The notes: a model not told the origin generated them from the letters alone. Positions 12,684-38,851 are shown, counted from the stretch's first letter. The stretch: 40,707 bases of DNA from Promethearchaeota archaeon (GCA_019894715.1 JAGXOA010000214.1:1-40707); one strand, 5' to 3'. Program-made: numbers and translations.

Positions 12684-12839
12684 TTAATCTTTTTTTAAGA
12701 GGGAATTTAGTTCTGTTTTTAATAAATCTCGTACAGCGACTCTAATTACTTCTGAGCGATTAGGATAATAATTGGCTGTTACTAATTCTTCGATTCCCTT
12801 TAAATATTGCTCTGGGATATGACATGTAATGAGCTTAAT
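12684..12839 (-). CDS. Ribbon-helix-helix (CopG/NikR N-terminal type) DNA-binding protein
   Basis: A 51-residue protein typical of archaeal ribbon-helix-helix repressors. The strand is KLITCHIPEQYLKGIEELV and the helix region YYPNRSEVIRVAVRDLLK. It would act as a dimer on a palindromic operator. The apparent start is ATT at 12839, where family members usually have the Met of an MKLIT-like start, with AGG exactly 9 nt upstream. TTG at 12863 in frame would add 8 residues but has no ribosome binding site. It converges with the methyltransferase gene. It could be an autoregulator or an antitoxin; I see no adjacent toxin. Confidence 0.75.
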   Translation of the reverse strand: MKLITCHIPEQYLKGIEELVTANYYPNRSEVIRVAVRDLLKTELNSLLKKD

Positions 12840-12863
12840 TGTTAAACACCTATTTATTAACAA

Positions 12864-13351
12864 ATTTTTTTTAATTAATATATGAAACCGAAATCTAAGT
12901 AATATATGTATATAATATTAGAATAATATATTATTGAAAACCGCTTTTATATTAAATTTATAAAAATCACTTCAATTTTACTAAAATAGTAATAATTAGG
13001 TATGTACAAATGACAGTGGTGAGGTTTAATTTACTCCAAGATCTATTATTGATACATATTTTCCAAGTTTTAATATTTGTTATCTATATTGTTAAAAAAG
13101 CTAATAATTTTTAAAATCTTTATATTTTCTAATTTATAAATTAATTTTTAAAATTAAAAATTAGTTAATAGAAAATATATCCAAGTTATTGTTTAAACAA
13201 TCTGTTGATCTTTTTTATGTACAGTAATTAGGTTAAAAGGCAACTCTTTAAAAGAATAAAAATATAATTTTATTATCAAAATCATTCCTTCTTATACAAA
13301 TAATAATTTATAATATATTTTAAAACCCTCTTAGAGAATAGGTGATCTTCA
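12864..13351. other. AT-rich intergenic region with one possible tiny gene
   Basis: About 490 bp of very AT-rich DNA between the RHH and TPR genes. Apart from the 34-codon frame at 13010 and the ribosome binding site of the TPR gene at 13340, I see no tRNA, CRISPR repeat or long inverted repeat. Confidence 0.5.
13010..13114 (+). CDS. Possible 34-residue single-helix membrane peptide
   Basis: The frame starts MTVVRFNLLQDLLLIHIFQV, continues hydrophobic and ends in YIVKKANNF. That is one membrane helix followed by a basic tail. AGG lies exactly 9 nt before the ATG, the spacing used by other genes here, which is the main reason to list it. Hydrophobic short frames are common by chance in AT-rich DNA, so this is tentative. 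Confidence 0.35.
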   Translation: MTVVRFNLLQDLLLIHIFQVLIFVIYIVKKANNF

Positions 13352-14266
13352 ATTTCAAATGATAATGAGAAAATAATGTTATTAAACAAAAAAGGACTTC
13401 TTGCAATTAACAATAATGATTATATTACAGCCCTTAAACATTTTGATGATGCTCTGGAATTAGATCCAAACCATGTCCAATTATGGAATAATAAAGGACT
13501 CACATATCTAAATTTAAATCAATATGAGAAAGCGATTGTTTGTTTTGATATCGTATTAGACTTGGATCATAGATATACTAAATCATGGAATAATAAAGGA
13601 ATGGTTTTAGAAAAATTAAATTTCTTTAATGATGCAATTAACTGTTATAATAAGGCTTTAAAATATGATCCTAAGGACGAAATAGCGATTTTATATAAAA
13701 AAAATATATCTAATAGACTTAAATATTATAAATTAACACATGGTCATTTTAAAGAAGCTTTAGAAAGAAAACCTAATGATGCAAGTGTTTGGAATCATAA
13801 AGCTCTTATCTTGAGTGCAATAAAACAATATTATGAAGCTATTCAATGTTTTAATAAAGCTCTAGAACTAACAAAAAATGATGCTGATATTTGGAAAAAT
13901 AAAGCTCTCACACACATCGCTTTAGAACAATATCATGAAGCAATAGAATGCTTTGATAGAGCACTAGAACTACATCCTGATGATGTAAATGCTTTGAGTA
14001 ATAAAGGACTTACATATGCAACATTAGAACAATATGAAGACGCTCTTGTTTGTTTAAATAGAGTATTAGAAATAAATCCTTATTATACATTTGCTATATA
14101 TTGTATTGCTCGTGTCTATTCTCTTTTGAAATATTATACCAAATCAGTAGAACATTTAAAGAAAACATTTGAGCTTGATATTAAATATAAAAATTTAGCA
14201 AAATATGAAGCAAATTTTGAAAATATGAAAGAATTTTCTGATTTTCAGGATTTAATAAATGAATAA
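13352..14266 (+). CDS. Tetratricopeptide-repeat protein
   Basis: Made of seven or so TPR units of 34 residues. Repeats carry the consensus forms WNNKGLTYLNLNQYEKAIVC, then FDIVLDLDHRYTKSWNNKG, and ALELHPDDVNALSNKGLTYA. The protein is a soluble superhelical scaffold for protein-protein contacts; the partner is unknown. I place the start at ATT 13352, because AGG of an AGGTGAT ribosome binding site lies exactly 9 nt upstream. The ATG at 13376 in the same frame has no such site and would remove only eight residues. At 304 residues it is transcribed alone, with a gap of 220 nt before the convergent hsp20 gene. Confidence 0.88.
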   Translation: MSNDNEKIMLLNKKGLLAINNNDYITALKHFDDALELDPNHVQLWNNKGLTYLNLNQYEKAIVCFDIVLDLDHRYTKSWNNKGMVLEKLNFFNDAINCYNKALKYDPKDEIAILYKKNISNRLKYYKLTHGHFKEALERKPNDASVWNHKALILSAIKQYYEAIQCFNKALELTKNDADIWKNKALTHIALEQYHEAIECFDRALELHPDDVNALSNKGLTYATLEQYEDALVCLNRVLEINPYYTFAIYCIARVYSLLKYYTKSVEHLKKTFELDIKYKNLAKYEANFENMKEFSDFQDLINE

Positions 14267-14486
14267 TTCTTGAAATGAATTACAATATTAAGTGAACTTA
14301 TTTTTTCAGATTTACCTATATTAAAGCAGTTAAGAAAATCTATAAAAAAAATAGAATAAAATAAAATAAGAAAAAAAATATATATATAATTGGGAGCTTT
14401 AGAAATATTTGAATGGAATTTAAAAAATATGCCTATTTTTCTTCTATATTCTAAAGTTTTTCCCTCTAGACTTTTTTATTTAGACA

Positions 14487-15023
14487 TTAATTTAGATTAT
14501 CTCCTGTATTGATATTTATATTTTTTGGAGGTAATTTCTCTATTTTTATCTTTAGTAATCCATTATTCATTTTTGATATAATTTTTTCTCTATCTATATC
14601 TGAAGGTAAAGGAACATCCAAATTTACATCTTTATTCCATAGATAGTTTAATAGATCTTTAAAAATTACTCCTCCACAATTAATATCTTCTTTTTGGTCT
14701 TCTGGTTTTTTGTCTTTTATCTCTTCTGAAGGTTTTTTAGCACTGATATTCAAATTATTACTTATTAGAGATACTTTTACATCGTCTTTTGATAAACCAG
14801 GTAAAGGAATGGTAATAAGATAATTATTTTCATTCTCTTCGATATTATATGGAACCCATCCTTCAAAATTACTCATACAATGTTTTACGTGTCCCATAAT
14901 CTTCTTTGCCATATGACCCATATCCATATTTAAAAATGCCATAGGCCCATCTCCCATAAAGTTATGTAAATTATCTCCAGAACAACATACATGTGTTTTA
15001 TGCAATTTTTTTCTATACCTCAT
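14487..15023 (-). CDS. hsp20: Hsp20/alpha-crystallin small heat-shock protein
   Basis: ATP-independent holdase chaperone. The alpha-crystallin domain begins at about 55 (WVPYNIEENENNYLITIPLP) and ends with the strand NNGLLKIKIEKLPP (about 153-166). The His/Met/Cys-rich N-terminus (about 1-50, with CMSNFEGW) is unusual. A charged insert lies in the loop between strands (about 95-125). There is no C-terminal IxI motif in standard form. It lies 38 nt downstream of the padR gene on the same strand and is probably co-transcribed, so likely controlled by that regulator. Confidence 0.88.
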   Translation of the reverse strand: MRYRKKLHKTHVCCSGDNLHNFMGDGPMAFLNMDMGHMAKKIMGHVKHCMSNFEGWVPYNIEENENNYLITIPLPGLSKDDVKVSLISNNLNISAKKPSEEIKDKKPEDQKEDINCGGVIFKDLLNYLWNKDVNLDVPLPSDIDREKIISKMNNGLLKIKIEKLPPKNININTGDNLN

Positions 15024-15061
15024 TTTTTTTTGTTTTTTATTTTTTTTCAGGTTCTTTTATT

Positions 15062-15712
15062 TCAAAAATCTTCAAATTCTTTATCATCATCAACTATAGG
15101 TATTGGTTTAGCGTTATTTTCTCTAGTTTCAATTATAATTTTAAGAATATCTTCATATGATTTTATCTGATTTTTCATTTTATTAAGTCTATATTTCAAT
15201 TTTTTTTCTCTATGTTTCAGGCTTTTGATTGTTTTTTTGATATATTCAATATTCTCTCTTGAAAGATCATTTTTATTTATCTCTCGATCAATGCCACGAT
15301 CACAGAATGGAAAACAACTAAAGACTTGCTCCATATCATCATCAATCTTAATTCCTTCCATAATTGTTCTGATAAAAGTCCCAAGTGTTTTTAAACTTGG
15401 TTCAAAATGTCCTTCTAAAGCATCTTCCAGTTCTACTAATCCTCTTTGAGCTATTGTATATATCTTCTTTTTTCTATTGTTTTCATCAATAATCTCTTCA
15501 GCTTTAACAAAAACTTTACCTATTAATCGATCTAATAATGGATAAATCGTACCTGCTGAAGCATTCCAAATTGGTTTAAATTTATTATTGATCTCTCTGG
15601 TTATATCATACCCTGTTATCTCAGAATTATTTTTAATTAGTGATAATACTAAGATTTCTAATCCTGATAACGACGTTCCGTGATGTCCGCTAAATTTTTT
15701 ACCAAAGAAAAT
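15062..15712 (-). CDS. PadR-family transcriptional regulator (ATT start)
   Basis: The N-terminal half is a PadR winged helix: SLSGLEILVLSLIKNNSEIT, GYDITREINNKFKPIWNASA, then GTIYPLLDRLIGKVFVKAEE and KKKIYTIAQRG. The C-terminal half has a long helix (NIEYIKKTIKSLKHREKKLK), as in PadR dimerisation regions, and an acidic tail. The frame opens after a TGA just before ATT 15712. No ATG, GTG or TTG occurs in frame until 15361, in the middle of the protein. AGG lies 9 nt before the ATT, so translation should give MFFGKKFSGHHGTSLSG. It is upstream of hsp20, with a 44-bp dyad before it that is a likely operator. Confidence 0.88.
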   Translation of the reverse strand: MFFGKKFSGHHGTSLSGLEILVLSLIKNNSEITGYDITREINNKFKPIWNASAGTIYPLLDRLIGKVFVKAEEIIDENNRKKKIYTIAQRGLVELEDALEGHFEPSLKTLGTFIRTIMEGIKIDDDMEQVFSCFPFCDRGIDREINKNDLSRENIEYIKKTIKSLKHREKKLKYRLNKMKNQIKSYEDILKIIIETRENNAKPIPIVDDDKEFEDF

Positions 15713-15740
15713 ACTTTTTCACCTTTTTGAAATAAAAGTT

Positions 15741-15784
15741 TTATATTCGTTTATTGATATATATGTATCTTATTTCGAATATAA
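15741..15784. promoter_or_regulatory. Nested 44-bp dyad, presumed PadR operator over the padR-hsp20 promoter
   Basis: Outer arms TTATATTCG (15741-15749) and CGAATATAA (15776-15784) are exact complements. Between them, on the same centre, is the near-palindrome GATATATATGTATC (15756-15769), separated from each arm by 6 nt. On the minus strand the core supplies a TATA-like CATATATATC about 45 nt before the padR start. A dimeric repressor bound here would block the archaeal TATA box. That PadR is the binder is inference. Confidence 0.6.
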
Positions 15785-15963
15785 TAAATAATAATAAATG
15801 ATTTACACTTATAAATATATTGGTGATCGAATAACACAAAATTTCAATTAAAGTGGAATAAATATTCTTAAAATTAACCAATTATTGTAAATATTATAAG
15901 ATTCCTACTATCTCAAGATTTCAATAACTATAATCAATTAATTTTTATAAAAGAAAAAAAGTA

Positions 15964-15991
15964 AGGTAAAAAATGAAATCATTTTTTACCT
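15964..15991. repeat. Perfect 13-bp-arm inverted repeat
   Basis: AGGTAAAAAATGA and TCATTTTTTACCT separated by AA. It is isolated in the intergenic space about 250 bp upstream of padR. It may be a protein-binding site or a transcript hairpin; nothing decides between these. Confidence 0.6.
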
Positions 15992-16222
15992 ATAGAATGA
16001 AAATTAGGATTTCGCATGAAAAATTCAATGATATCGAATTTTTCTCCCTTTCACTCCCATACTAAATATGGTAGAATATAATAGAAAATACTTTCCATTA
16101 TATATATATAAGATTATATAACACCATATTTAAACCTTTTGAAATTTTAATAATCTTCTTTTAGAATCTAATAAGCACTTAATAAAAAGATATATATGTA
16201 GATATATTATTGTACATTTTAG

Positions 16223-16232
16223 AAAAAAAAAA
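16223..16232 (-). terminator. Oligo-T terminator candidate
   Basis: A run of ten A on the plus strand, thus ten T in the minus-strand transcript, about 50 nt after the stop of the small zinc protein gene. Archaeal transcription ends at such T runs without a hairpin. Confidence 0.45.
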
Positions 16233-16282
16233 GAGATTTATTATATTTCAGACTTTTTTCTCTATGTTTTTATTTTTATTCT

Positions 16283-16444
16283 TTAAAAAATAGTAAATTT
16301 ATCTTTAATTTCTCCTACGTTTGTGTTTAAAAAAGTGTGGCTTCTGTGAATTTTCTCAAATATATTTACTCTTTTTATACTGTTTGAATTATTTGGATGA
16401 ATTAATACATATTCTTTACACTTAAGACATGTACGGGCTCTCAA
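16283..16444 (-). CDS. Small Cys/His zinc-binding protein
   Basis: A 53-residue protein, MRARTCLKCKEYVLIHPNNS and onward, with C6-x2-C9 and a later H33-x2-H36 (KIHRSH), a plausible four-ligand zinc site. The patterned remainder (NTNVGEIKDKFTIF) looks like real coding sequence. I chose TTG 16444 because the frame upstream of it is low in conserved character and a TATATA stretch lies about 25 nt before it, suggesting a leaderless message. The frame extends to ATG 16537 (84 residues). Function unknown. Confidence 0.5.
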   Translation of the reverse strand: MRARTCLKCKEYVLIHPNNSNSIKRVNIFEKIHRSHTFLNTNVGEIKDKFTIF

Positions 16445-16458
16445 TTTATAAAAATATA

Positions 16459-16629
16459 ATGTATATATTAGACTGTGGTGAAATAACAATAAATGATCCT
16501 GAACGTGATTATCTATTTTATAAAACAAAGATAACATTTTTAGAAAATCCTTCAGAAGGTTGTGTATTCAATATAATTCTCTTGAAACATGGATATTTAA
16601 TAAAAAGGAGTATACTGCATAAACAATAA
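16459..16629 (+). CDS. Possible small protein, divergent from the zinc protein
   Basis: From ATG 16459 the frame gives 56 residues (MYILDCGEITINDPERDY and onward), mixed in character. It begins only 15 nt from the divergent start at 16444, so the promoters would overlap the other gene. At most one of the two may be fully real. An upstream ATG at 16429 would overlap the zinc protein. Confidence 0.25.
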   Translation: MYILDCGEITINDPERDYLFYKTKITFLENPSEGCVFNIILLKHGYLIKRSILHKQ

Positions 16630-16664
16630 AATTATGAAAATAGTAAAATAATGTATATCATTGA

Positions 16665-18914
16665 TTAGATATCCATTAAATTTGGAATTGTATTTTTATG
16701 TAGATTTTCTAGCTCAAAAACATCCATAGTAAAATCATTAATATTAAGACCCGATATATTTATCTTTGATTTAGAAATTACCATTCCAATTTGATTCACA
16801 GAAATATTAAAACTCTTAGCTAACTCAATAATTTCTTTTTTGTTTTTTGATTCGGTTTCAAGAATAAATCTACCTACACTTTCACTAAATAAGAATTCAT
16901 CAACTCTCATTTTACTGTTATAGGTTTCATTAAATTGTAGATTTGCTCCAAGTTTATTTTTAAAGCACATTTCTGCTATTGAAATCAGAATTCCACCTTT
17001 ATTAACGTCATGATTAGCTTTCACTAGATTTCTTTTATATAACTCTTGAATAAATTCCCATCGAGATTTTATATTATCTTCATCGACTTTTGGTGGGGTG
17101 CCTCCTTCTAGATTATAGATAACAGAATGATATTCAGATCCTCCTAATTCAGCAAAAGTGCCTCCAACTAATAAGATGTCATTACCTGACTGTTTAAAAG
17201 GTAAAGTTATTATATTTTCTTTTCCATCAATAAGACCAACAATCATTATTATTGGAGTTGCTTTAATTGCAGTTTTTGTTCCTTCATCTTCATTATAAAA
17301 GGAAACATTTCCTCCAATAACAGGAATTCGTAATTTTTTACAAATATCTGCCATACCCTCAACTGCTTTTGAAAAATACCAATATGATTCTGGTATTTCT
17401 GGATTACCAAAATTACAACAATTGACCATTGCCAATGGTTTTGCTCCAGTAGCTAATATATTCCCACATACTTCCACTAGATTTCCTTTAGCACCATTAT
17501 AAGGATCTAAATAACAATGCTTTGAATTTGCTCCCACGCTTGAAGCAATGAATTTATCTGTACCAATTAATCTTAGAACACCAGAATCTCCATCTCCACA
17601 TTTCACAATGGAACGTACTCCTACTTCATGATCATATTGCCTATATATCCATTCTTTACTACAAATATTTTCGCTGGCTATTAGTTCATAAAGAATTTCT
17701 TTCATAGACTTAATAGGTTCTGGTGTTTCTTGAGATAAGAGATGATCAAGATAGTCAGGTTTTTTTTTTTCTCGTTCGGCAATGGGTGATTCTGATAATG
17801 CTTTAGCTGGCAGTTTTACAATAAAATCATCCTTATTATAGACTTTTAACACTTTTGAGTCGTCAGTTCGACCTATGACTGCATGTGGGGTTTCAAATTT
17901 CCTAAATACATTTAATACTGTTTCTAAACCTTCTGGTTTAACGATAAAAGCCATTCTTTCTTGAGATTCTGATAGCATTATTTCAAATGAATTCATATTT
18001 GGTTCTCTTGTAAATATTTTATTTATATCTATATTTGCTCCGGTTCCCCCATCTCCCGTTAATTCACTAAGAGCACAAGATAATCCCCCACCACCTAAAT
18101 CTTTAAGCCCTCTAATATAACCTGTTTTAATCGCCTCGAGAGTTGCTTCAATTATTAATTTTTTTGTAAAAGGATCTCCTATTTGTACTGCTGGACGATC
18201 CTCTTCAGATTCATCAGTTAATGTTCTGGATGCAAATGTAACTCCATGAATTCCATCTTTTCCAGTTGATCCTCCCATTAAGATTACATAATCTCCTGGA
18301 TTATATGCTCTGCTTGGAGCATGTTTAAAATCTTCTATTGTACCTAAACCGATACAAGCAACATTTACTAAACAATTATTTTGAAAACTCTTATCAAATT
18401 CCACTTCTCCTCCAATTGTAGGAATTCCTGTACAATTCCCATAGTCAGCTATCCCTTTAACAACATATTTTAATAACCATTGAGAATGAGGATTATTCTT
18501 TAGAGATCCAAATCTTAGAGGGTCTAATAGAGCAATTGGTCTTGCTCCCATACATAAAATATCTCGAATTATTCCCCCAATTCCTGTAGCTGCACCATGA
18601 TATGGTTCTATCGCAGAAGGATGATTATGAGATTCAATTCTGAATGCAAGACAATATCCATCTCCAATATCAATAACACCTGCATCTTGTCCAGGACCTG
18701 CTAGAACATAATCATAATTTTTTTCAGCATCTTCAAACATTCTCAATTTTGGGCGGGATGACTTATAGGAACAATGTTCACTGTACATCACATCAAACAT
18801 TCCATATTCAGTAAAGGTTGGTTCGTGATCCAATTCTTTTCTAATAAAACCAATTTCATCTTGGGTTAAATCAACATGTAATTCCTTTCCTTCTTTATTA
18901 ATTATTTTTGGCAA
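16665..18914 (-). CDS. purL: Phosphoribosylformylglycinamidine synthase subunit PurL
   Basis: Synthetase subunit of the fourth step of purine synthesis, turning FGAR into FGAM with ATP and ammonia from PurQ. It is the 749-residue small form that works with PurS and PurQ. Motifs include the N-terminal YSEHCSYKSSRPKL, ESHNHPSAIEPYHGAATGIG (ATP and metal site), GGSTGKDGIHG and LKDLGGGGLSCALSE, followed by a second half of like fold. The start is TTG at 18914, with AGG exactly 9 nt upstream, 3 nt after the purQ stop. An ATT one base upstream is out of frame. Confidence 0.97.
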   Translation of the reverse strand: MPKIINKEGKELHVDLTQDEIGFIRKELDHEPTFTEYGMFDVMYSEHCSYKSSRPKLRMFEDAEKNYDYVLAGPGQDAGVIDIGDGYCLAFRIESHNHPSAIEPYHGAATGIGGIIRDILCMGARPIALLDPLRFGSLKNNPHSQWLLKYVVKGIADYGNCTGIPTIGGEVEFDKSFQNNCLVNVACIGLGTIEDFKHAPSRAYNPGDYVILMGGSTGKDGIHGVTFASRTLTDESEEDRPAVQIGDPFTKKLIIEATLEAIKTGYIRGLKDLGGGGLSCALSELTGDGGTGANIDINKIFTREPNMNSFEIMLSESQERMAFIVKPEGLETVLNVFRKFETPHAVIGRTDDSKVLKVYNKDDFIVKLPAKALSESPIAEREKKKPDYLDHLLSQETPEPIKSMKEILYELIASENICSKEWIYRQYDHEVGVRSIVKCGDGDSGVLRLIGTDKFIASSVGANSKHCYLDPYNGAKGNLVEVCGNILATGAKPLAMVNCCNFGNPEIPESYWYFSKAVEGMADICKKLRIPVIGGNVSFYNEDEGTKTAIKATPIIMIVGLIDGKENIITLPFKQSGNDILLVGGTFAELGGSEYHSVIYNLEGGTPPKVDEDNIKSRWEFIQELYKRNLVKANHDVNKGGILISIAEMCFKNKLGANLQFNETYNSKMRVDEFLFSESVGRFILETESKNKKEIIELAKSFNISVNQIGMVISKSKINISGLNINDFTMDVFELENLHKNTIPNLMDI

Positions 18915-18917
18915 TAT

Positions 18918-19625
18918 TTAGGACCTCTTCTCTATAAAATTTTTCATACTCTCAAAAAATAATCTTCCATGTGTTGTACTTTCTGGACTTAAAATAGATT
19001 CTGAAGCTCTTTCTGGATGTGGCATTAATCCTAAACATTTTTGTTCTAAATCACATACTCCAGCTATATTTTCCAAGGAACCATTTGGGTTTGAACTTTC
19101 TCCCATTTCTCCATTACTATCAACATATTTAAACACAATTTGATTATTATCTTCCAATTCCTTTAAATTATCTGTGAAATATCTTCCTTCTCCATGAGCT
19201 ATTGGAATATTTAGAATACTACCTGACTTCATTTGATTAGTAAATGCTGTTTGGTTGTTTTCTACTCTTATTTTAATCCATTTGCAAATAAATTTAAGTG
19301 AATCATTTTGTAATAGAGCACCTGGAAGAAGCTGTGCCTCTGTTAAAATTTGAAAACCATTACATATTCCTATTATAGGCTTATCCTCTTTTAACATTTG
19401 ACGGGCTTCATCTATAGCAGGACTATGCGCAGCAATTATACCTGATCTTAAATAATCTCCAAAAGAAAAACCACCAGGTAATATTGCTCCATCAAATTGT
19501 GATCCTTTAAAATCATTATGCCAGATTAACTTAGTTTCTATACTCATTACATTATTTAATACATGTAATGCATCTAAATCACAATTAGAACCAGGAAATT
19601 GAATAATTGCTATTTTAATATTCAT
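18918..19625 (-). CDS. purQ: Phosphoribosylformylglycinamidine synthase subunit PurQ
   Basis: Glutaminase subunit that feeds ammonia to PurL. It is a class I amidotransferase fold with the nucleophile in IGICNGFQIL (Cys at about 88), the oxyanion loop GGFSFGDYLRSG and the catalytic His/Glu in MPHPERASE near the C-terminus. At 235 residues it is of usual length. It starts at ATG 19625, 6 nt after the purS stop, within the purS-purQ-purL operon. Confidence 0.97.
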   Translation of the reverse strand: MNIKIAIIQFPGSNCDLDALHVLNNVMSIETKLIWHNDFKGSQFDGAILPGGFSFGDYLRSGIIAAHSPAIDEARQMLKEDKPIIGICNGFQILTEAQLLPGALLQNDSLKFICKWIKIRVENNQTAFTNQMKSGSILNIPIAHGEGRYFTDNLKELEDNNQIVFKYVDSNGEMGESSNPNGSLENIAGVCDLEQKCLGLMPHPERASESILSPESTTHGRLFFESMKNFIEKRS

Positions 19626-19631
19626 AATTCT

Positions 19632-19901
19632 CTACTGATTTGCTTCAGTTACATTTAAAATATTTAGCTTTTGAGTAACTGGATTATATATCCTTAAATC
19701 ATTACACATTTGGACAATAATATCCTTTGCTGAATCTTTATCTTCTGCTTGAAGAGAAATTTTTAAATATTGACCGCTTCTAACATGGGATACCATATCA
19801 TATCCTTTTTTAGCGATTAAATCTCTCTGAATTGTATCGGCAACGGGATCTCTAGCTGCTGACTTCAGAGTCATTACAATCTCAACAATGAAGCTATTCA
19901 T
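19632..19901 (-). CDS. purS: Phosphoribosylformylglycinamidine synthase subunit PurS
   Basis: Small subunit that bridges PurL and PurQ in the FGAM synthase complex. It is an 89-residue ferredoxin-like protein with the family signature DPVADTIQRDLIAKKGYDMV and the strand GQYLKISLQAED. Family members often begin near Val-8, so ATG codon 10 is an alternative start. It is the first gene of the tight purSQL operon. Confidence 0.93.
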   Translation of the reverse strand: MNSFIVEIVMTLKSAARDPVADTIQRDLIAKKGYDMVSHVRSGQYLKISLQAEDKDSAKDIIVQMCNDLRIYNPVTQKLNILNVTEANQ

Positions 19902-20021
19902 ATTAAATGTAATTAATAATGAAATATAAGATGAATTATTAGTAATAAAATAAAGAAAAGCATTAAAAAGAGAGCTTAAAACTTCTTAACTTTTCTTAAT
20001 TAATGAATTTTGTTATAAAAA

Positions 20022-20219
20022 TTAAAATAAACTTATCAGTATCAGCAATAAGAACGCCCCTGCTAAAAATTGGAAGCTTCTTTTTAAATAAAATGGCATA
20101 TCTTGTTTTTTTGCATTTCGATTTTCATTTTTATTTAATTTTTTTATATCTATAAATAAATAGAAAAATCCTATTATAGTACAAATAAAAACCAATATCA
20201 ATAATATAAAAACAATCAT
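20022..20219 (-). CDS. Small two-helix membrane protein
   Basis: A 65-residue protein with hydrophobic segments at about 2-24 and 48-65, joined by a Lys/Asn-rich loop that should be cytoplasmic. It lies between purC and purS on the same strand with gaps of more than 100 nt on each side, so it need not be part of that operon. Function unknown. Confidence 0.55.
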   Translation of the reverse strand: MIVFILLILVFICTIIGFFYLFIDIKKLNKNENRNAKKQDMPFYLKRSFQFLAGAFLLLILISLF

Positions 20220-20375
20220 AAAATTACAACTAATTTATAGAAATAAATAAAATCTTATAAAAATCACCAATTTCTAATTTAGCCATCAATCTTTTTTGAA
20301 TTACTTAATATTCAAAAAAAATTCAATTGATAAAATACTAGCAAAAATATTATAATAAACAATATTTTATCCGTT

Positions 20376-21353: not shown

Positions 21354-21583
21354 AATAAGAATAAAAGTAGAGAAAATTAAAGAATATTTTAATAACAAGT
21401 TAATATTTTGGAATAGATGATGCATTTATTATTCAGAATAGTAGATAGAATCCTCTAATAATAAAATATCTAACATTTCTAAACAAATTAAATTACAAAT
21501 CCTCTAATTTTTAATTCTGTTTTCTAAAATCGATCAGAAATATCGAAAAATAATATATAACCAAAGAGAATGGTGGGTTAATA

Positions 21584-29163: not shown

Positions 29164-29287
29164 TTGACATTCAGTAGGGTTAAAAATAATCGTTATAGAA
29201 AGTCTTTTTTTATCTCTATAGAAAAAGAGAAGAATTTATATAGGTTATCTTAGAAACCTATTTTTTGAATATTTAATTTATAAAAAT

Positions 29288-29521: not shown

Positions 29522-29593
29522 CATCTTTTTAATTCTTTTTAATCTATTTTCAATAATTACATAATTTTATTATTTTATCATCTAGGTGATACT

Positions 29594-29680: not shown

Positions 29681-29778
29681 TTTTTTATGAAGAACTCAAA
29701 TGTGATCTTTAAATTTATGAAATATCTAACTTTTTTTGTAAAAGAAAAAAAATAATCAAATATTGTGAAGAAAATCCG

Positions 29779-30225: not shown

Positions 30226-30383
30226 TTAACTTAGCACCTTTATTAACAATAATCGAGATATTCTACAAATTGTAAATTCTGCAACATTTATAAATATAAT
30301 CCGTTTATTGATTATAATTGACATTATTCAAATAAATAACCTATGTTTCTCAACTTGCTTTGGTAAAAGAAATCATATTTTTT

Positions 30384-30396
30384 AAAAAAAAAAAAA
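30384..30396 (-). terminator. Oligo-T terminator of the metalloprotease gene
   Basis: Thirteen consecutive T in the minus-strand transcript, about 20 nt after the stop codon at 30414. Confidence 0.6.
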
Positions 30397-30413
30397 GAGA
30401 TTTAAGGAATAAT

Positions 30414-31439
30414 CTAATTTGAATAGGTTGCTAACTTTGTTGCAATTGTACTCACATGTCCTCCATCAAAGATCTTTCCACTACCAAATCTGGCTAACCA
30501 ATAGTCCATTACAGAGGGTCTTTTATCAGTTGTATCTCCTGTGCTGTCGATCTCTCCCTCTAAATCAGTACCTCCTCTATCAGCATTACCTTCACCTGTA
30601 ATTCCATAGATATGACCTACTTCATGCATGATTACACTTAATATTCCATTTATACCTAAATTCCAAGTTAATTGTTGGTAGATGTATGCCAAATTTAGAA
30701 TTACAAAGTTAGAACCATAAGCCATACCTTGTACCCCAACATCTAATGATGGTTTATATGTGAAGAAGATAGCTATATGAAATTTTGAAGAAATATTATA
30801 ATTTATTCCCCAATTCTTCATATCTGTCATATCTTTTCCATTATAACCATTAGAATCATAATCACACCAATCTACTTCGTATTTTGTATTAAAGTTAATA
30901 TTAAAATATTGTCCAAATCCTTCATTAAGAGCTGTATAAACAGAAAATACTAAAATTTCTGGTGTACGGAAAGTCCATGTTAAATGAGACCATGCACTTA
31001 TATCATATATAATTTTCACATTTACATCATATTCTCCAACAGCAATATTATATGTAAATTCTCTTTTGGTAGTGTAGGTCCCACTAGATGAAGATGTAAC
31101 TGTTCTTATTTTGAATTGATAAACTCCTTCGGTATTCATTTGAATCCATATCTCTTTATATCCATGTCCATCAACTCGAGCAACATATTGATATTCTTTT
31201 CCATTTTTATAAATTTCAATATATGCCATATCATATGATCCAATAACATCAGGAGTAGTCCAGCTAAGCTTCACTTTTTCCCCAGGTTTCATCTTAGTTC
31301 TATCAAGAGTTGGATTAAGATTATATCCGGCACTTGAACTTTTGATAAATCCTATGTTGAAAATAAGAAATGTATTTAAAACTAAAAGTATGAGAAGAAA
31401 CTTAGATTTAAATTTTTTAAAATTCATTGATCTTTTCAT
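30414..31439 (-). CDS. Secreted metzincin-like zinc metalloprotease
   Basis: A 341-residue protein with a signal peptide (basic start, hydrophobic 13-31, then SSSAGYN). A beta-sandwich domain (about 40-135, LDRTKMKPGEKVKLSWTTPD) is followed by a protease domain. The zinc motif HEVGHIYG is at about 270, with MHE before it. SVMDYW at about 308 is a good Met-turn, pointing to the metzincin clan. The third ligand expected three residues after the motif's Gly (HExxHxxGxxH/D) is Gly here, so the third zinc ligand must lie elsewhere or the site is altered. It is extracellular or cell-surface. AGG lies 10 nt before the ATG. Confidence 0.82.
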   Translation of the reverse strand: MKRSMNFKKFKSKFLLILLVLNTFLIFNIGFIKSSSAGYNLNPTLDRTKMKPGEKVKLSWTTPDVIGSYDMAYIEIYKNGKEYQYVARVDGHGYKEIWIQMNTEGVYQFKIRTVTSSSSGTYTTKREFTYNIAVGEYDVNVKIIYDISAWSHLTWTFRTPEILVFSVYTALNEGFGQYFNINFNTKYEVDWCDYDSNGYNGKDMTDMKNWGINYNISSKFHIAIFFTYKPSLDVGVQGMAYGSNFVILNLAYIYQQLTWNLGINGILSVIMHEVGHIYGITGEGNADRGGTDLEGEIDSTGDTTDKRPSVMDYWLARFGSGKIFDGGHVSTIATKLATYSN

Positions 31440-31571
31440 TAAGATTTAACCTCTATTAATAATTTATTAAATTTCATTATGAACTACTAGTTTTTAAGAG
31501 ATATTTAAATCAGATCAGGACTAAACTTAGACAAATTCTAATCTTTATAGAGGGATCAGGACCAAAATTCG

Positions 31572-31760
31572 TCAAATTAGATAATAATAAAAAATTACAA
31601 ATTCTTCTTTAAAATAATATATTCTTTTGTTTTGATGCCAATTTTCTATTCGCTCAGCTAACGCAAAATTATACAAGAGACGACATTTCTCAGATAATAC
31701 CCAGAACAAGTGTTCTTATTCCTTCGAAGGATTTATCCTAATCTTTTGCGTGAGCTTCAT
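31572..31760 (-). pseudogene. tnpB 5' fragment with in-frame stop
   Basis: Starts MKLTQKIRINPSKE, has TAA at codon 15 where the related copy has CAA (Gln), then continues in frame with EHLFWVLSEKCRLLYNFALA and ERIENWHQNKR, the standard TnpB N-terminal domain. Recognisable similarity ends near 31610; the remaining frame is AT-rich filler. The RuvC domain is absent, so it is inactive. Confidence 0.88.
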
Positions 31761-31829
31761 TACTATAATTAGAGAGTATGAATAGAGAAAAAGTGGGAGG
31801 GTGTGATGGTTTACCAATTTTTTTACTAT

Positions 31830-31871
31830 GCTCAATTCATCCCCTCCCTAAAGGGAGGGGTCTTCTTGAGC
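31830..31871. repeat. Left-end hairpin of TnpB-element copy 3
   Basis: Outer arms GCTCAA and TTGAGC and inner arms CCCCTCCC and GGGAGGGG pair around TAAA, with a 5-by-5 internal mismatch. It is the same position and fold as at 134-173 and 5529-5570. Confidence 0.85.
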
Positions 31872-31983
31872 AATTATGATAAAGTCTTTTTCATCAAAAA
31901 GTATGATTCTAAATTTTTATATTACAATTATGTTATTATTAGTATAAAGGAAAAGGAATTTATCTTTAAAGAGGAATGATAGT

Positions 31984-33780
31984 ATTTCTGCAATTAATCT
32001 GAATAAAATAAAGGAAGATATAACATCTGGAAATTATGAAAAAGCTTTAGACAACTTAATTTCATTAATTAATGATGATAATTCTTTAATCTTAAAAGAT
32101 ATTTTAGAAGGAATTCAAGAAATTCAAAATAAGGGCAATTTTTTATCAAAAGAACACTTAGAAAAGATTAAACCATTAATCGATTCTTATGATGAAAATG
32201 TACAAGAATTATCAATCAAATTGTATATTAACGCAATAAATAACAATTTTAACCTTATTAATAAAGAGTTTAATTACATATTATCAAGATTAAGTCATTT
32301 TGAGCAAATAGTTAGGGAAAAATTTATTATTTTTCTTATTAATATCTTTGGTAAAAATCCTGATTTTGAAAAAAAAATAATCATTGGTCTGATAGGATGT
32401 TTAAAGGACGAATTTTGGAATATAAGAATTCGGATTATGGAATTTTTTAATAATATTATCGATAAAAGATCTAAATTTTTTAAAGATTTTGATAAGGAAC
32501 TTATAATTCTATTAGAAGAAGAGGATCTTGACGTCAAATGGGAGACTTTGGAATTTCTATTTAAATATATTATCGAAATGTATTCAATTAATGAAATTAA
32601 AGAATTAATAAACTCAATAAGAAATAACAATTGGGTAGTACAAGAAAATATTATATTTTTGATTAGTAGGATTGGGATAAAGGAGAAAAATTTAATTAAA
32701 CCTATAACTAAAGATATCATATTATTTCTTGATCATGATGACTTTCTTGTAAATAAAGCTATTTTTAATTCAATTAAAGAGATCATGGAATATCATGTAG
32801 ATCTATTTGATGAAGCTTTTTTTTTCTATTTAAATGATGATGAATTTGATAATTTAGAAGCAATCGAAAATCTTTTAAAATTTTCAATTAACAAACATGG
32901 TTTTTTAAGATTTTATTATTTATTTATGACAATTACGCTTATAAATATTCAAATTACAGTTACTTTCACAAATATTGTTAAAAAATTATATTTAGAAAAT
33001 CCTAAATTTGTTGAATCCCTATTTTCGCAGTTAGGTAAAATTGTTTTAAATAAAATTGATATGAATATTTACACAAAAATGAGAATGTTTTTAAAAGCAG
33101 TTCCAAAATATCATATTTATTTGGATATATATCATACAGTAAATGAATTAGAAAAATTTGAGGATTTTGAAGCAGATTCTTTGAGAAAAGAATTGTTAAC
33201 TTTTCTAAGTGAGATGATACCTGAATTAGATTATGTAAATCTAAGTGAATGGTTGTCATTAGAATTAAAAAAGAGAGAAATTCATATAGATGAGATATGT
33301 TCCAAATATAACATTCATAGATCTAAAATTATGGATATTTTGTTAATGCTGTTGAATAAGAAGATGATTGAAGCAAATATTTCTAATAATATTGTAATGT
33401 CAATCAAACATATAAAAAAACCAAAAGATGACTTATTATTCCAAAAACAATGGAAATACATTCATAAATCTAAGCATTTCCAATCTGTAATTACATTATT
33501 TATACAAATCAAAAATATATCCACAGATAAAATTATAAACTTAAATATAATTTTAGATTATCCCAAAGATTTATTTATAAAAGGAAGATCTGATTCTAAA
33601 ATGGATAATATCCCAAAAATATTAAACCCCGGTCAAAATGTTATACTTAATTGGAATTTTCTGAAACATTTTGATGAAAGTTCTGGAATCATCTCTAGAA
33701 GACTAATTATTATTGCTCTTTATAAAAAATTTAATAGAATTTTCACAATAAAAAAGGAATTAGAAATATTGTTAATATAA
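31984..33780 (+). CDS. HEAT-solenoid protein with wHTH and beta-sandwich C-terminus (ATT start)
   Basis: A 598-residue protein. Residues 1-360 are HEAT-like helical repeats (VREKFIIFLINIFG, IRIRIMEFFNNII, VKWETLEFLFKYI). A winged-helix-like segment follows at about 420-475 (SLELKKREIHIDEICSKYNI). The last 110 residues form a beta-sandwich (FQSVITLFIQIKNISTDKII, LNPGQNVILNWNF). This order loosely recalls vesicle-coat adaptins with an ear domain; that is inference. The first 79 codons, after a TAA at 31945, contain no ATG, GTG or TTG, yet read as continuous helical protein. AGG lies 9 nt before ATT 31984, the chosen start. TTG 32221 would cut off two repeats. Confidence 0.75.
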   Translation: MSAINLNKIKEDITSGNYEKALDNLISLINDDNSLILKDILEGIQEIQNKGNFLSKEHLEKIKPLIDSYDENVQELSIKLYINAINNNFNLINKEFNYILSRLSHFEQIVREKFIIFLINIFGKNPDFEKKIIIGLIGCLKDEFWNIRIRIMEFFNNIIDKRSKFFKDFDKELIILLEEEDLDVKWETLEFLFKYIIEMYSINEIKELINSIRNNNWVVQENIIFLISRIGIKEKNLIKPITKDIILFLDHDDFLVNKAIFNSIKEIMEYHVDLFDEAFFFYLNDDEFDNLEAIENLLKFSINKHGFLRFYYLFMTITLINIQITVTFTNIVKKLYLENPKFVESLFSQLGKIVLNKIDMNIYTKMRMFLKAVPKYHIYLDIYHTVNELEKFEDFEADSLRKELLTFLSEMIPELDYVNLSEWLSLELKKREIHIDEICSKYNIHRSKIMDILLMLLNKKMIEANISNNIVMSIKHIKKPKDDLLFQKQWKYIHKSKHFQSVITLFIQIKNISTDKIINLNIILDYPKDLFIKGRSDSKMDNIPKILNPGQNVILNWNFLKHFDESSGIISRRLIIIALYKKFNRIFTIKKELEILLI

Positions 33781-33794
33781 TTAGTATTATATAT

Positions 33795-35483
33795 CTAGAG
33801 ATTGACTCCATCCATTAGATCTATTCTTCCACTTTTATCATCTTCAGCTTTTGGATCCGGAAATGCAATATAAACCCATTTAATCATATCTTGAAGTGTA
33901 TAATGACCATCCCAAGGCATTCCTATTGATTGAATATTATGTTCTCCAATTCTAGGGAATCTATTTGCTCCTAATAATGATAATTCTTCAGATACATCTT
34001 TAACAAAATCATCTGAACCATAAATAGATACCGTTTGTAGATATTGTTGTAATTTTTCTTTTCTTATAGAATATATTAACTCCTGTATATTAGAAATTCT
34101 TGTTACTACAACAAAACGATCTTGGCACATGTCTACTTCCATCATGGAAGGTAAATCTCGTAAATAAATAACAGTCCAATCTAATTTTTCTTTAGTAGGA
34201 AAATAAAGAGTTGCTCTTTTTTTAAAAGCATATTTCGTAAGGAAATATTCTCGTTTTTTATTCGTTTGTAATCCATCTGCTTGAGTTAGATGACTACGGG
34301 GTAGTTTAATGTCTGCTTCTTTTAATCCTTCTGCTAGTAATTTAGCAAATCCTTTTGTTGATAAATCGGATATTTCGTTTTTAAGTAATTTCATAGAACG
34401 TTGCATCTGTGTAACAAGATTATTAGAATCTGAATTTTCAAAGATATCATTACCATTACTATGTAATAATTTTTCAATTTGAGAAAAATCATCTAATTCT
34501 CCGTTTAAATTTTGTAATGATTGTCCATTAATTTCCCTAATATCAATTTTTTGAGGTTTTTCTACGATATATATAATTCTTGGGCTTAAACATGCTTTTT
34601 GATTCCAATAGACTAAATCTAATGCAATTTTATTAGCAGCATCTATCATTTGATCTCTATTTTTGAATATATCATCTGAAATAACACTAAAAGAAAGCTT
34701 AGGGCCATGATCAATTATTTTTATCCCAAATCGATTTGCTCTTTTTCTTATATCTTCAATTGATTGTATCCCTCCCCAAGCTAAAACACAATCAACATAT
34801 CCTGAATTAAATAATTCATTATAAATATCTACTTGGCTTCCTTTCCAATAGATTGCAGCTATTTCCTTTGCTATTTTTTTATCAATATCAAGGATTGATT
34901 CACATAATCTAATTAGAAAATAAGGTTCTCCATGAGACAGTTTGATTAGATTTACATTTTTAGTTATAAGTCCAAAATATAAAGTTAATAAACCTAGATT
35001 AAAAGCATTACCGGCTAGATTATGAAAAACTAATCCCCTAGGTTGAGCATGGATTCTAGTATTACCTTTGGGAATCCAATCCTCTAAATACTTTTTACCT
35101 CCAATTTCTCCAAGTAATTGAGCTTCTGCAACTTTTTTATCACACAACATAAGGGTTGCCATAAGTTCAATTTCTATTAATTTTTTTGATTGACCTGTTA
35201 TCATTGGGAGGACGTCTAATGCTTCTTTTCGAAGATCATAAAAAGGATCACGCCAAAGAGAACCCAATTGATCAATAAAATCTAAAACATCATCAATATC
35301 TCTGTCATGAGCTCTTCTTTTTTTTAAAGCTATTGTTTGTGCTGTTTTTAAAACTTGACTTTTATTAAATACAGGAAATTCAATTTCTAAAACATCATCT
35401 TGACGTTTAATTTCTTCCTTTGTTGTATTTTCCGAGAAAATAGATTTAAAAATAAAACCTGGAAGATTAATTTTTTTTTTCAT
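33795..35483 (-). CDS. luxC: LuxC-like acyl-CoA (fatty-acyl) reductase
   Basis: An aldehyde-dehydrogenase-fold reductase of the LuxC family that reduces an activated acyl group to the aldehyde with NADPH. The central GLVFHNLAGNAFNLGLLTLY and KLSHGEPYFLIRLCES, and the catalytic cysteine in YWNQKACLSPR (about 300), are clear. At 562 residues it is longer than bacterial LuxC (about 480), with an extra N-terminal region of some 100 residues. It follows the LuxE-like gene by 85 nt on the same strand. In luminous bacteria LuxC, LuxD and LuxE make the luciferase aldehyde; no luciferase is seen here, so the aldehyde has another use. Confidence 0.88.
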   Translation of the reverse strand: MKKKINLPGFIFKSIFSENTTKEEIKRQDDVLEIEFPVFNKSQVLKTAQTIALKKRRAHDRDIDDVLDFIDQLGSLWRDPFYDLRKEALDVLPMITGQSKKLIEIELMATLMLCDKKVAEAQLLGEIGGKKYLEDWIPKGNTRIHAQPRGLVFHNLAGNAFNLGLLTLYFGLITKNVNLIKLSHGEPYFLIRLCESILDIDKKIAKEIAAIYWKGSQVDIYNELFNSGYVDCVLAWGGIQSIEDIRKRANRFGIKIIDHGPKLSFSVISDDIFKNRDQMIDAANKIALDLVYWNQKACLSPRIIYIVEKPQKIDIREINGQSLQNLNGELDDFSQIEKLLHSNGNDIFENSDSNNLVTQMQRSMKLLKNEISDLSTKGFAKLLAEGLKEADIKLPRSHLTQADGLQTNKKREYFLTKYAFKKRATLYFPTKEKLDWTVIYLRDLPSMMEVDMCQDRFVVVTRISNIQELIYSIRKEKLQQYLQTVSIYGSDDFVKDVSEELSLLGANRFPRIGEHNIQSIGMPWDGHYTLQDMIKWVYIAFPDPKAEDDKSGRIDLMDGVNL

Positions 35484-35568
35484 ATTATGTTAATAAAAAA
35501 AATAAGATATAATTATTTTTAGTAAGAAAAAAAAATTAATAATTTAAAAAAAAATTTAAAATATTTTA

Positions 35569-36756
35569 TTATTCTACGTCAGTCTCTTGTTCTAATTGAG
35601 CACCACATCCTCTAGCTTCTGCTCCTTCAGCTCTACCTAAAACTTCAATGACTTTTCCTTTCCTTCCACAAGGACAATCATCTTCCATAACAATCCTTAC
35701 AATATCATCTTGTAAAATTGAAACACCAGCATAACTATAAGCAATAGGATTAATTACATTGTTAAGTCCCTTTTCTCCAATTTCTACGGGTTCTAAAGTT
35801 TCAACATCTCTAACAACAATATCTTGCCATGGAAGAAGATGTTTATTATGATATTCACACTCAGCATGAACACAATCGGTTTCAGTAAAACTGTATACAT
35901 CTAAAATTTGTTGTTGAGGAATACCTAAAATCTTTGTCATATCTTCTCTAAATTGAACAGGTGATACAGCTTCTCCTGAAAAGGATTTCCATCCTCCTCC
36001 TGAAACAAATACAGTGTTTTCTCCTACATTAAATCCTTGTCCAGTTTTTTCAAAATATCCTTTTAATGTTCCATATATTAATGGAATGGCTCCGCCAATC
36101 CATCCAATTCCTTTTTCTGCAGGATTCGCCTTTAGGAAGCCAAAAGTAGTTTGTTCATCAAATTCAAATAATTTACCTTTTTTTCTTGATTCTTCATCAG
36201 CGAATTTTAAAGCATAATATCTCTTTTCCATAGGAAGTTTATTTGCAACATTAAAGATATAACCCATATGATTTTGAGGATGAGCTACTTTTTCATCTCT
36301 TGCTAAAACTTTTTGAGGTTTTGGTTGAAAGAATAAAGACCAATTATAATCTTTTAAACTACATATTTCCCCAAGAACAAATTCAAACATTTTAAAAAAT
36401 CTATCTAAATTTGTTTTATCTCTTCCAACGAGGGAAGGATCACCAGATGTACCACTTGACATTGTCCAAGCTAAAATTTCATTTTCTGGAACACATAATA
36501 AATCCTTAGGTCTACCAGATTTTCGCTTAAAATTCGCCGTTGTTAAATAGGGTATTTTATCGATATCTTCTAAAGATTTTATGTCTTCTTGAGGATTAAA
36601 ATTCTTCTGTCGGCAGAATTTACGATAAAAATTACATTTTTCAAATTGATGGCGTGCCGTTTCCAATATTGCATTAAATCTTTCTTTTTCTACCTTACTT
36701 TGATCATTATCATATAAAAGTTCCTTTCCTCTATTCAATAATTTATCAATTATCAT
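35569..36756 (-). CDS. luxE: LuxE-like acyl-protein synthetase
   Basis: An ATP-dependent acyl-activating enzyme of the LuxE/PaaK-like group. The phosphate loop TMSSGTSGDPSLVG is at about 95, with VFVSGGGWKSFSGEAVSPVQ and VYSFTETDCVHAECEY downstream. The C-terminus has a CPCGRKGKVIEVLGRAEG turn. It likely activates a fatty acid as acyl-AMP and hands it to the LuxC partner encoded next. At 395 residues it is of normal length. AGG lies 7 nt before the ATG. A gap of 186 nt separates it from the FIST gene, so it may have its own promoter. Confidence 0.87.
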   Translation of the reverse strand: MIIDKLLNRGKELLYDNDQSKVEKERFNAILETARHQFEKCNFYRKFCRQKNFNPQEDIKSLEDIDKIPYLTTANFKRKSGRPKDLLCVPENEILAWTMSSGTSGDPSLVGRDKTNLDRFFKMFEFVLGEICSLKDYNWSLFFQPKPQKVLARDEKVAHPQNHMGYIFNVANKLPMEKRYYALKFADEESRKKGKLFEFDEQTTFGFLKANPAEKGIGWIGGAIPLIYGTLKGYFEKTGQGFNVGENTVFVSGGGWKSFSGEAVSPVQFREDMTKILGIPQQQILDVYSFTETDCVHAECEYHNKHLLPWQDIVVRDVETLEPVEIGEKGLNNVINPIAYSYAGVSILQDDIVRIVMEDDCPCGRKGKVIEVLGRAEGAEARGCGAQLEQETDVE

Positions 36757-36942
36757 TTTGCTACCTTAAAGTATATTTTTATCCATTTGGTGATAATTAT
36801 TATTTTAATATTTTTCGAAAAAGATAAAATGAGTATTTAATAGAAATAAAATTGTTTAAAGTTATTTTTTTTAATTAAAGTTCCTCTAATCAAAGGAAAA
36901 AATAAAAAAAGATATAACAAATTTTTTTTATATTAAATTAAA

Positions 36943-38259
36943 TTAATCTCCACCAGCTAAAGTTACATATGTCACATTATTAAAATACCAATCAATATCT
37001 TTAGTTCCGTAAATTTCACCACCAGAACCAATTATCATTCGAGGAATATCTTTTCCGATAGTATCGTCAATAGTTTTTATTATTTTTGGAAAATTATCTC
37101 CATATGCAATAAATCTAATTGCACAATCTATCCCCAATAAAAATTTGGGATTTGAAATATTTTCTAAAGCTTGATTTATAGATTTTTCTGCTGTCTTATG
37201 GAGTATGTTCATATTACTCTGAAAAATATCTATTTTATTTGGAACACGATCGAATGGAAATCCAGTATTAATAAGACTTTCAAGTTCAGGATTAGTAATT
37301 GTAGCTGTTAAATGTATATATTCCTTACCTTTTATTAATTCTTTAGTTCCAAATATTAAATAATAGTTTAAATAATTAGAAGATTTTAATTCATATAAGG
37401 ATTCCTTTTGAATTCCAGCAGCCGAGCATAATCCTAATAAAGCTGGTTTTCCATCTACTCTTAAAATAAAATTTCCTATATTTTTTGTAGGTTTACAACT
37501 ATATCCTGTATATTCAGCACCCGCAGCAAATCCAATACCAAATTTTGTTGAATTTTGTCCTGATAATATTGCACCAAGAACTCTATCTGTTCCAACTTCA
37601 TCATTATAGAATTCTTCAGAATCATAATCTCTTATATTAGTTGCAACATTTCCAATCACAGGAATATCCCATCCTTTGGAGAAAAGAATTTCAAGTAATT
37701 CTTGTACTGTAGGCATTCCCAATCCATTTTCTTTAAATTCTTCTAGTTGTCTTTTAAAAAATCTATTAATTAATCCTGAAAACAATGACACTACACGACT
37801 ATTAAGAGAATTCTGCTTTGCTAATACCTCAGGAGGAAATTTCATTCCATCTTGGAACATTAACATTATACGATTATTATTAGGATCTAAGTTCTTTCCT
37901 TTTTCATATATTTTTTCTGCAATAGTCTCATATTCCATTCTTGAATTACCATAATTGTAAGATGAATCAATAGAAATATCACCACCTAACAACATCAGAC
38001 CAACACTTCTTAATGCAAATCGATCTTTTACTAATATCCCATTAACTGTACTGCCAATTAAAGTAATATCTGGACCTAATACTTCATATACGCCTCTAAT
38101 AACTTCTTTATTATTGAAATGTCTTCTAGTGAGAGAATCTATAGCTAAAATAGCTAATTTAGGTTTAAGTTTCATTCCTCCTAATGCTTCATTAGCTACT
38201 TTTTTTCCAGCCAAATAACTATCCCTTTCTGTTGTGATTGCTACATTTGCGTCTAACAT
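36943..38259 (-). CDS. FIST-domain sensor protein
   Basis: A 438-residue protein with FIST-N (about 20-230; LKPKLAILAIDSL, EVLGPDITLIGSTVNGIL, VGLMLLGGDISI) and FIST-C (about 250-438; FILRVDGKPALLGLCSAAG, and IIGSGGEIYGTKDIDWYFNN at the end). FIST domains are thought to bind small ligands and usually feed signalling modules. There is no attached kinase, cyclase or chemoreceptor domain, so output must go through another protein. The roadblock and gelsolin-like genes just upstream on the strand are candidates. AGG lies 10 nt before the ATG. Confidence 0.88.
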   Translation of the reverse strand: MLDANVAITTERDSYLAGKKVANEALGGMKLKPKLAILAIDSLTRRHFNNKEVIRGVYEVLGPDITLIGSTVNGILVKDRFALRSVGLMLLGGDISIDSSYNYGNSRMEYETIAEKIYEKGKNLDPNNNRIMLMFQDGMKFPPEVLAKQNSLNSRVVSLFSGLINRFFKRQLEEFKENGLGMPTVQELLEILFSKGWDIPVIGNVATNIRDYDSEEFYNDEVGTDRVLGAILSGQNSTKFGIGFAAGAEYTGYSCKPTKNIGNFILRVDGKPALLGLCSAAGIQKESLYELKSSNYLNYYLIFGTKELIKGKEYIHLTATITNPELESLINTGFPFDRVPNKIDIFQSNMNILHKTAEKSINQALENISNPKFLLGIDCAIRFIAYGDNFPKIIKTIDDTIGKDIPRMIIGSGGEIYGTKDIDWYFNNVTYVTLAGGD

Positions 38260-38330
38260 AAATATTAATCCTCAAGATTATAATTATTATATATTAAAAT
38301 ATTATTACATTTTACAAAATAACTCATTAT

Positions 38331-38840
38331 TTAAATCTGTGATAAGAATTTATTGATTTTTTCCCTCATTTTTCCAAGATCTAAAGATAATTCTTTTAAA
38401 ATTGAAGTTACTTTTTGTATAGAGATCATATTATCGGTTTCTTTTGGTATTTTTATTGGTTCTGAATGGACTTCTTCAATAATGATATCTTCTGCTTTTG
38501 ATATTTTTTCAATAATATCATCTGATAAATAATATTCTCCTTCTTCAATTGGTTTCATAATTCGATCCTTTGATATTTTTGGAAATTGTTTTGGTTCATT
38601 TCCACTATCAACAACTTCTATACTCGCACCATAAAGTTTTTCTTTAGATTTTATTCTCGTTGCTGATACTCCAGCAAAATATTTATCTAACATATTTGAA
38701 TCAGGACCACTCCAAATCCAGATTTTTGATCTTTTTCTTCGATGTTTTTCTATTATAATATAGATCTTATCACTTTCAAAGGGTGCTTCTTCAACGGGAA
38801 TTATTTCTTTATTTTCAACTTTATATAAAATTAAACTAAT
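38331..38840 (-). CDS. Gelsolin-like domain protein (ATT start)
   Basis: The first 95 residues form one gelsolin-homology domain: YIIIEKHRRKRSKIWIWSGP, then DKYFAGVSATRIKSKEKLYG and a closing EVVDSGNEPKQFPKI, matching the family pattern of VxIWxG, a long helix and a final GxEPxxF. Gelsolin proteins bind and sever actin; Asgard archaea have actins and gelsolin-like regulators. The last 70 residues are a charged linker and a helix (SILKELSLDLGKMREKINK). The GTG at 38849 lies inside the Shine-Dalgarno AGAGGTGA. ATT 38840, 8 nt after AGG, gives MSLILYKVENKEI, as for uS4 where the true ATG follows a GTG in the same way. Confidence 0.75.
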   Translation of the reverse strand: MSLILYKVENKEIIPVEEAPFESDKIYIIIEKHRRKRSKIWIWSGPDSNMLDKYFAGVSATRIKSKEKLYGASIEVVDSGNEPKQFPKISKDRIMKPIEEGEYYLSDDIIEKISKAEDIIIEEVHSEPIKIPKETDNMISIQKVTSILKELSLDLGKMREKINKFLSQI

Positions 38841-38851
38841 ATTCTTCACCT

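Follow-up and report, generated by a model that had tools for sequence, protein, structure and literature searches.

Some genes of the Lokiarchaeon-like archaeon considered here genuinely begin, as judged from aligned orthologues, with AUU, AUA or AUC, near-cognate codons referred to below as AUH, as distinct from the canonical set of ATG, GTG and TTG (NTG). Of greater importance is a finding made beyond the DNA that was originally analysed: initiation at AUU of the gene for aIF1, itself a factor in start-codon fidelity, is strongly supported by sequence comparison across the Lokiarchaeota. The window, i.e. the whole analysed stretch of 40,707 nucleotides, corresponds to contig C231; the genome to which it belongs (coded G000) measures 3.36 Mb, has a GC content of approximately 26 % and is 98 % complete. 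Its relatives are coded G001 onwards, with G001 the nearest. Start-codon usage beyond the window was counted in 1.7 Mb from three genomes, and aIF1 was surveyed in 40 named Lokiarchaeota loci, with 33 non-Asgard archaea for comparison, across family f1, its sister family f2 (Lokiarchaea) and other Asgard families. The products of window genes and of further genes with non-canonical starts were assigned to protein families with Pfam.

ATT start codons in the window

The genes of the window that bear on the question are as follows.

311..1168, (+) strand: TrmB-like regulator ORF, stop to stop (Pfam TrmB); candidate start CTG 314 or ATA 317
12684..12839, (-) strand: RHH (CopG-type) regulator (Pfam RHH_1); ATT 12837-12839, Shine-Dalgarno (SD) AGGTG, AGG 9 nt upstream
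13352..14266, (+) strand: TPR protein (Pfam TPR); ATT 13352-13354 behind AGGTGATC
15062..15712, (-) strand: PadR-like regulator (Pfam PadR); ATT 15710-15712, SD AAGGTGA
31984..33780, (+) strand: 598-aa protein, the 'HEAT' protein of a preliminary description; ATT 31984-31986, SD GAGG
38331..38840, (-) strand: gelsolin-like gene (Pfam Gelsolin, weak); ATT 38838-38840, SD GAGGTGA, AGG 8 nt upstream

The preliminary description of this DNA had placed ATT codons 9, 9, 9, 9 and 8 nt after an AGG in the RHH, TPR, PadR, 598-aa and gelsolin-like genes, respectively, and TTG at 9 nt in glmS and purL; a recount of the window sequence gave the same distances exactly. Its statement that the PadR and 'HEAT' genes offer no alternative start also holds, the PadR frame being free of NTG from the in-frame stop two codons upstream of ATT down to codon 117, and the 598-aa frame, for whose product a Pfam search returned zero matches, from the stop 12 codons upstream down to codon 79. 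Alignment of orthologues, a check proposed in the same description, revealed canonical codons at the exact ATT column, the mark of a non-canonical start, for PadR, the gelsolin-like gene, RHH and the 598-aa protein. Fourteen of 15 close PadR orthologues (window included) start just before the FFGK motif at one aligned codon, which is ATT in G000, G001, G008 and G015 (two genera), ATG in nine genomes and TTG in G002; the fifteenth, from G007, probably starts with ACG. At the corresponding codon of the 598-aa protein, ATT is found in G000, G013 and G017 (three genera) and ATG in G030, and the gelsolin-like start is ATT in G000 and ATG in G017, G013, G035 and G005. RHH is the most varied, with ATT in G000 and G001, ATA in G002, G009, G010, G011, G017 and G034, GTG in three genomes, TTG in G004 and ATG in the remainder. 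Since an isoleucine codon inside a gene is not expected to swap with ATG, TTG or GTG right at the N-terminus, these ATT codons are best read as starts, and for PadR, the 'HEAT' gene, the gelsolin-like gene and RHH the orthologous sequences confirm that reading. For TPR, the sole orthologue found carries ATC, so none is canonical at that column; ATT in G000 and ATC in G001 are each preceded by a conserved GGTGATC, and codons 2-9 are kept in protein sequence between the two.

Could the true starts be other, canonical codons, with ATT serving as an ordinary isoleucine codon or as part of the leader? Three genes provide openings, which also count against the mechanism proposed below: RHH has an in-frame TTG eight codons upstream of ATT, the gelsolin-like gene a GTG three codons upstream, within the SD, and TPR an ATG at 13376, eight codons downstream. 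Yet the RHH and gelsolin-like candidates would sit upstream of or inside the SD, the orthologues of both genes place ATG exactly at the ATT, and in G017 an in-frame stop of the RHH gene falls downstream of the position that matches the window's TTG. PadR, the 598-aa protein and, beyond the window, aIF1 and an aIF5A-like gene have no such codon, or have one only deep within the conserved part, and we consider this explanation very improbable. A sixth non-canonical start in the window, at CTG or ATA, is possible for the TrmB-like ORF; NTG is absent near its conserved N-terminus in both G000 and the G017 orthologue, and in both the similarity begins at CTG ATA.

Two gene neighbourhoods may be recorded in their own right. 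A gene weakly matching Roadblock/LC7 is followed immediately by the gelsolin-like gene, the two forming a eukaryote-like pair (window 38331-39787, (-) strand), and a gene for a LuxC-like acyl-CoA reductase adjoins one for a LuxE-like acyl-protein synthetase (33795-36756, (-) strand; Pfam).

The start codon and leader of the aIF1 gene

Among the 40 named Lokiarchaeota loci encoding SUI1/aIF1 (Pfam), 34 lack any NTG in the interval from the upstream stop to the conserved zinc knuckle; these carry ATT (33 loci) or ATC (one locus) six codons before the first cysteine of the knuckle. Within f1, an in-frame stop mostly lies a few codons before the knuckle and the constant codon is ATT, with ATC in G004 and L212; the genus comprising G006, G014 and G032 shows ATA at the corresponding codon, a GTG four codons upstream being the alternative. 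The start in f2 is ATA in G022, G026 and G030 (the last with a possible GTG) and TTG in G024, G028, G037 and G038, and no aIF1 gene with ATG was found in f1 or f2. Other Asgard families have ATA behind AGGAGG-N9 (G043, G058, G065 and G051), CTG (G047), perhaps ATA (G050), GTG (four genomes) or ATG (several others). ATG begins aIF1 in Sigynarchaeota and in 33 of 33 non-Asgard archaea. As a control, aIF1A starts with TTG in G001, the sole genome read. The gene has three of the attributes by which an autoregulated gene of the infC type is recognized, in that it encodes a presumed fidelity factor (the role being known from aIF1 of S. solfataricus and of P. abyssi; PMC6237735), has a near-cognate start outside ATG, GTG and TTG, and keeps that codon across species next to neighbours that nearly always have ATG.

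The constancy of this codon bears on the view that AUU and AUA initiation is real but without regulatory role, aIF1 included, and has arisen by neutral drift in very AT-rich genomes under weak start-codon selection. The free variation of RHH and PadR start codons among relatives, the involvement of metabolic genes and a GC content near 26 % all agree with drift, which is possible for AUH starts generally. It fits the near-constant aIF1 start poorly: ATG is never found there in f1 and f2, whereas of two neighbouring genes on these contig pieces one has ATG in 28 of 28 cases and the other in 28 of 32; aIF1 starts other than AUG appear again in further Asgard families; and ATT occupies the start in 33 of the 40 loci, as against 29 ATT, 7 ATC and 4 ATA for the isoleucine codon five positions further on. 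Drift as the whole explanation therefore seems to us unlikely, albeit the most serious competitor.

That errors of assembly or sequencing turned ATG into ATT might be suspected of metagenome-assembled genomes, such as these are, and had already been judged unlikely in the preliminary description. Identical ATT codons occur in independent genomes from separate projects, the 33 aIF1 loci with ATT at one place include L232 (CP070805.1, a record titled as a chromosome), and neighbouring genes on the aIF1 contigs keep their ATG. For aIF1 and PadR such error is refuted by the shared ATT, and overall its probability is negligible.

The leader of aIF1 contains a 10-nt block, AAGGTTGTGA, occupying positions -19 to -10 relative to the start and conserved at 91-100 % per base (34 loci; L205-L240), upstream of which the sequence drifts. 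In the window's genus the AAGG half of the block is missing and GTGA is kept, which weighs against the mechanism proposed below. The block resembles an SD to which further bases have been added, and may act as a translational operator. In-frame stops very near upstream, resembling some recoding sites, raise the thought that ribosomes enter these genes from an upstream frame by programmed frameshifting or stop readthrough. But conservation upstream is limited to the block beside the start, and no conserved upstream frame running into the gene was seen at the 34 loci; of the two other frames, one is blocked at the start itself in almost every locus and the other becomes open at a variable point 1-38 codons upstream, and the upstream stop can be TGA, TAA or TAG. 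Given the variable stop and the lack of a conserved upstream frame, frameshifting and readthrough were rejected as having hardly any likelihood.

Genome-scale frequency of AUH starts

Counts in the 1.7 Mb from three genomes, in which the chance expectation for in-frame occurrences is about half of the out-of-frame count, temper one proposal and strengthen another. The genome-wide test of AGG-N9-ATT envisaged in the preliminary description gave 8 in-frame occurrences as against 15 in the remaining two frames (p=0.38); by itself this exact spacing is not enriched and does not serve as a hallmark, a point that also tells against the mechanism discussed below. With stronger SDs the corresponding counts were 26/27 for ATT (p=0.013) and 31/28 for ATA (p=0.0016). 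A sharper test took ORFs no shorter than 100 aa in which the TGA of a GGTGA supplies the upstream stop, and read the codon at a fixed distance. Outside the window, 9 of 22 such ORFs had ATT, ATA or ATC there, versus a background of 157 of 1224 (13 %; p=0.001); once the window was added, the figure was 13 of 27 (p=1.3e-5). A count of in-frame versus out-of-frame codons was only weakly positive, and in an all-codon measure of enrichment after SDs, covering codons 1-60, SD-like sequences internal to genes drowned the signal. An EM-trained SD model, returning approximately 90 % ATG and 8 % TTG, is blind to AUH starts, which are absent from its candidate codons.

Of 226 orthologue pairs from the same 1.7 Mb, 105 have a common canonical start column and, as a rough figure, about 3 % show AUH-type starts. 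The new cases outside the window, being pairs without any NTG or with ATT or ATA facing ATG, are the following.

L291:15893-16321, (-) strand, and L309 (G017): aIF5A-like gene, ATT in G001 and G017 (two genera)
CdhD-like protein (Pfam): ATT versus ATG in the orthologue
Aconitase C-terminal-like protein (Pfam): ATA versus ATG in the orthologue
MFS transporter (Pfam): ATA and ATT in the orthologue pair
Response regulator (Pfam): ATT or GTA
M28 peptidase (Pfam): ATA

In the aIF5A-like gene, the TGA of GGTGA is in frame two codons upstream of ATT. Separately, ACG possibly faces ATG of orthologues in the genes for an RFC-like protein (PWVEKYRP motif) and one other (L341 of G001 and L075 of G000).

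On this sequence evidence, AUH starts are a real minority feature, amounting (the figure is rough) to a few per cent of genes and often accompanied by a strong SD. The earlier suggestion of a lineage habit is upheld by the exchange of ATT, ATA, ATC, TTG, GTG and ATG at one aligned position among relatives; the habit is not specific to ATT, since ATA and ATC starts occur too. Five ATT starts in 40 kb are likewise a real feature, but represent a local excess relative to roughly 3 % of pairs. The further idea of a relaxed initiation system finds no support in the sole initiator-tRNA-like sequence found, which has a normal CAT anticodon, and that aIF1 should itself begin at a codon other than AUG suggests regulated rather than merely relaxed initiation.

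Proposed feedback and comparison with known systems

We regard it as probable that these Lokiarchaea employ AUU, AUA and AUC besides AUG, UUG and GUG, with an aIF1 start that fits homeostatic feedback; the positions and codons are read from sequence, and the feedback is proposed by analogy. A pattern search found one archaeal initiator-tRNA-like sequence in the genome, anticodon CAT (ARAGORN found no Met tRNAs in the fetched tRNA loci), and with a single such tRNA AUU would most simply be read by third-base mispairing. Thus, the ordinary Met initiator tRNA presumably mispairs at the third base of AUU, AUA and AUC as a strong SD with a GGUGA/AGGUG core would hold the mRNA in place, most genes staying with AUG and a few per cent being near-cognate. 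The aIF1 gene has AUU at a fixed position, rarely AUC or AUA, and UUG or AUA in the sister family. When aIF1 is scarce, discrimination would weaken and its own AUU would be used more; when aIF1 is abundant, its synthesis would fall. The AUU and AUA genes of the window might be tuned by the level of aIF1 or just kept at low expression. Methionine as the first residue, the mispairing, the feedback and the co-regulation of other genes are thus what we infer. ATG at aIF1 in several Asgard families means that the loop would not be universal, and the diverse metabolic genes with AUH starts fit drift as well as regulation. The same ARAGORN search labelled L109 (G000:C169:5363-5464) as tRNA-Pyl; this tRNA contains an intron, and its predicted anticodon is CTA.

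A bolder version, which we put forward tentatively and rate as less probable than not being the case, is that the aIF1 start is deliberately non-AUG in Asgard archaea and that the level of aIF1 governs how strongly a translational regulon of AUU and AUA genes is expressed, including regulators, aIF5A and some cytoskeletal-type and metabolic genes. If true, the same feedback logic would operate in all three lineages, through IF3 in bacteria, aIF1 in Asgard archaea and eIF1 in eukaryotes.

AUU starts are very rare elsewhere; across 36 prokaryote groups, AUG became AUU in 1 of 61,358 ancestral AUG starts, counts that rest on annotation (PMC5622118). Here, a few per cent of genes, including aIF1 and aIF5A, appear to be AUH-started, and gene finders restricted to ATG, GTG and TTG will truncate or miss them. 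The reported scarcity of SD sequences in Lokiarchaea (PMC7531240, PMC12993045) may in part be due to wrongly annotated starts. A literature search that took in few subscription journals and little of bioRxiv found no published account of AUU starts in archaea, of Asgard start codons or of archaeal aIF1 autoregulation.

In S. solfataricus, complexes formed at codons other than AUG are destabilised by aIF1 (PMC6237735). The bacterial gene infC, encoding IF3, starts with AUU in E. coli and AUC in Streptomyces, and IF3 autoregulates, as related in PMC5472188 and references therein; eIF1 is described as limiting its own translation via an AUG in poor context (Ivanov et al. 2010, as cited in PMC6237735). 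Because IF3 and eIF1 each limit their own translation, aIF1 would by analogy damp its own synthesis, and its AUU start suggests a self-adjusting loop like that of IF3. The likeness to infC is that a fidelity-factor gene has a near-cognate AUH start which many species retain, and that aIF1, like IF3, is reported to disfavour near-cognate codons. Unlike IF3, aIF1 belongs to the SUI1 family, which is not homologous in sequence; the ribosome is archaeal and the leader of the SD-GTGA kind, many other genes of these genomes are AUH-started too, and the aIF1 feedback is a prediction. Eukaryotic eIF1 is homologous to aIF1 (SUI1 family), and the proposed feedback would follow the same logic, but the eukaryotic codon is AUG in poor context, whereas the Lokiarchaeal codon is non-AUG with an SD present. 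Lastly, Streptomyces sigR, whose GTC start is repressed by IF3 (PMC5472188), also codes for a regulator, has a non-canonical start linked to a fidelity factor, and was misannotated for that reason; sigR was established by experiment in one bacterium, whereas the present cases are several candidate genes known from sequence.
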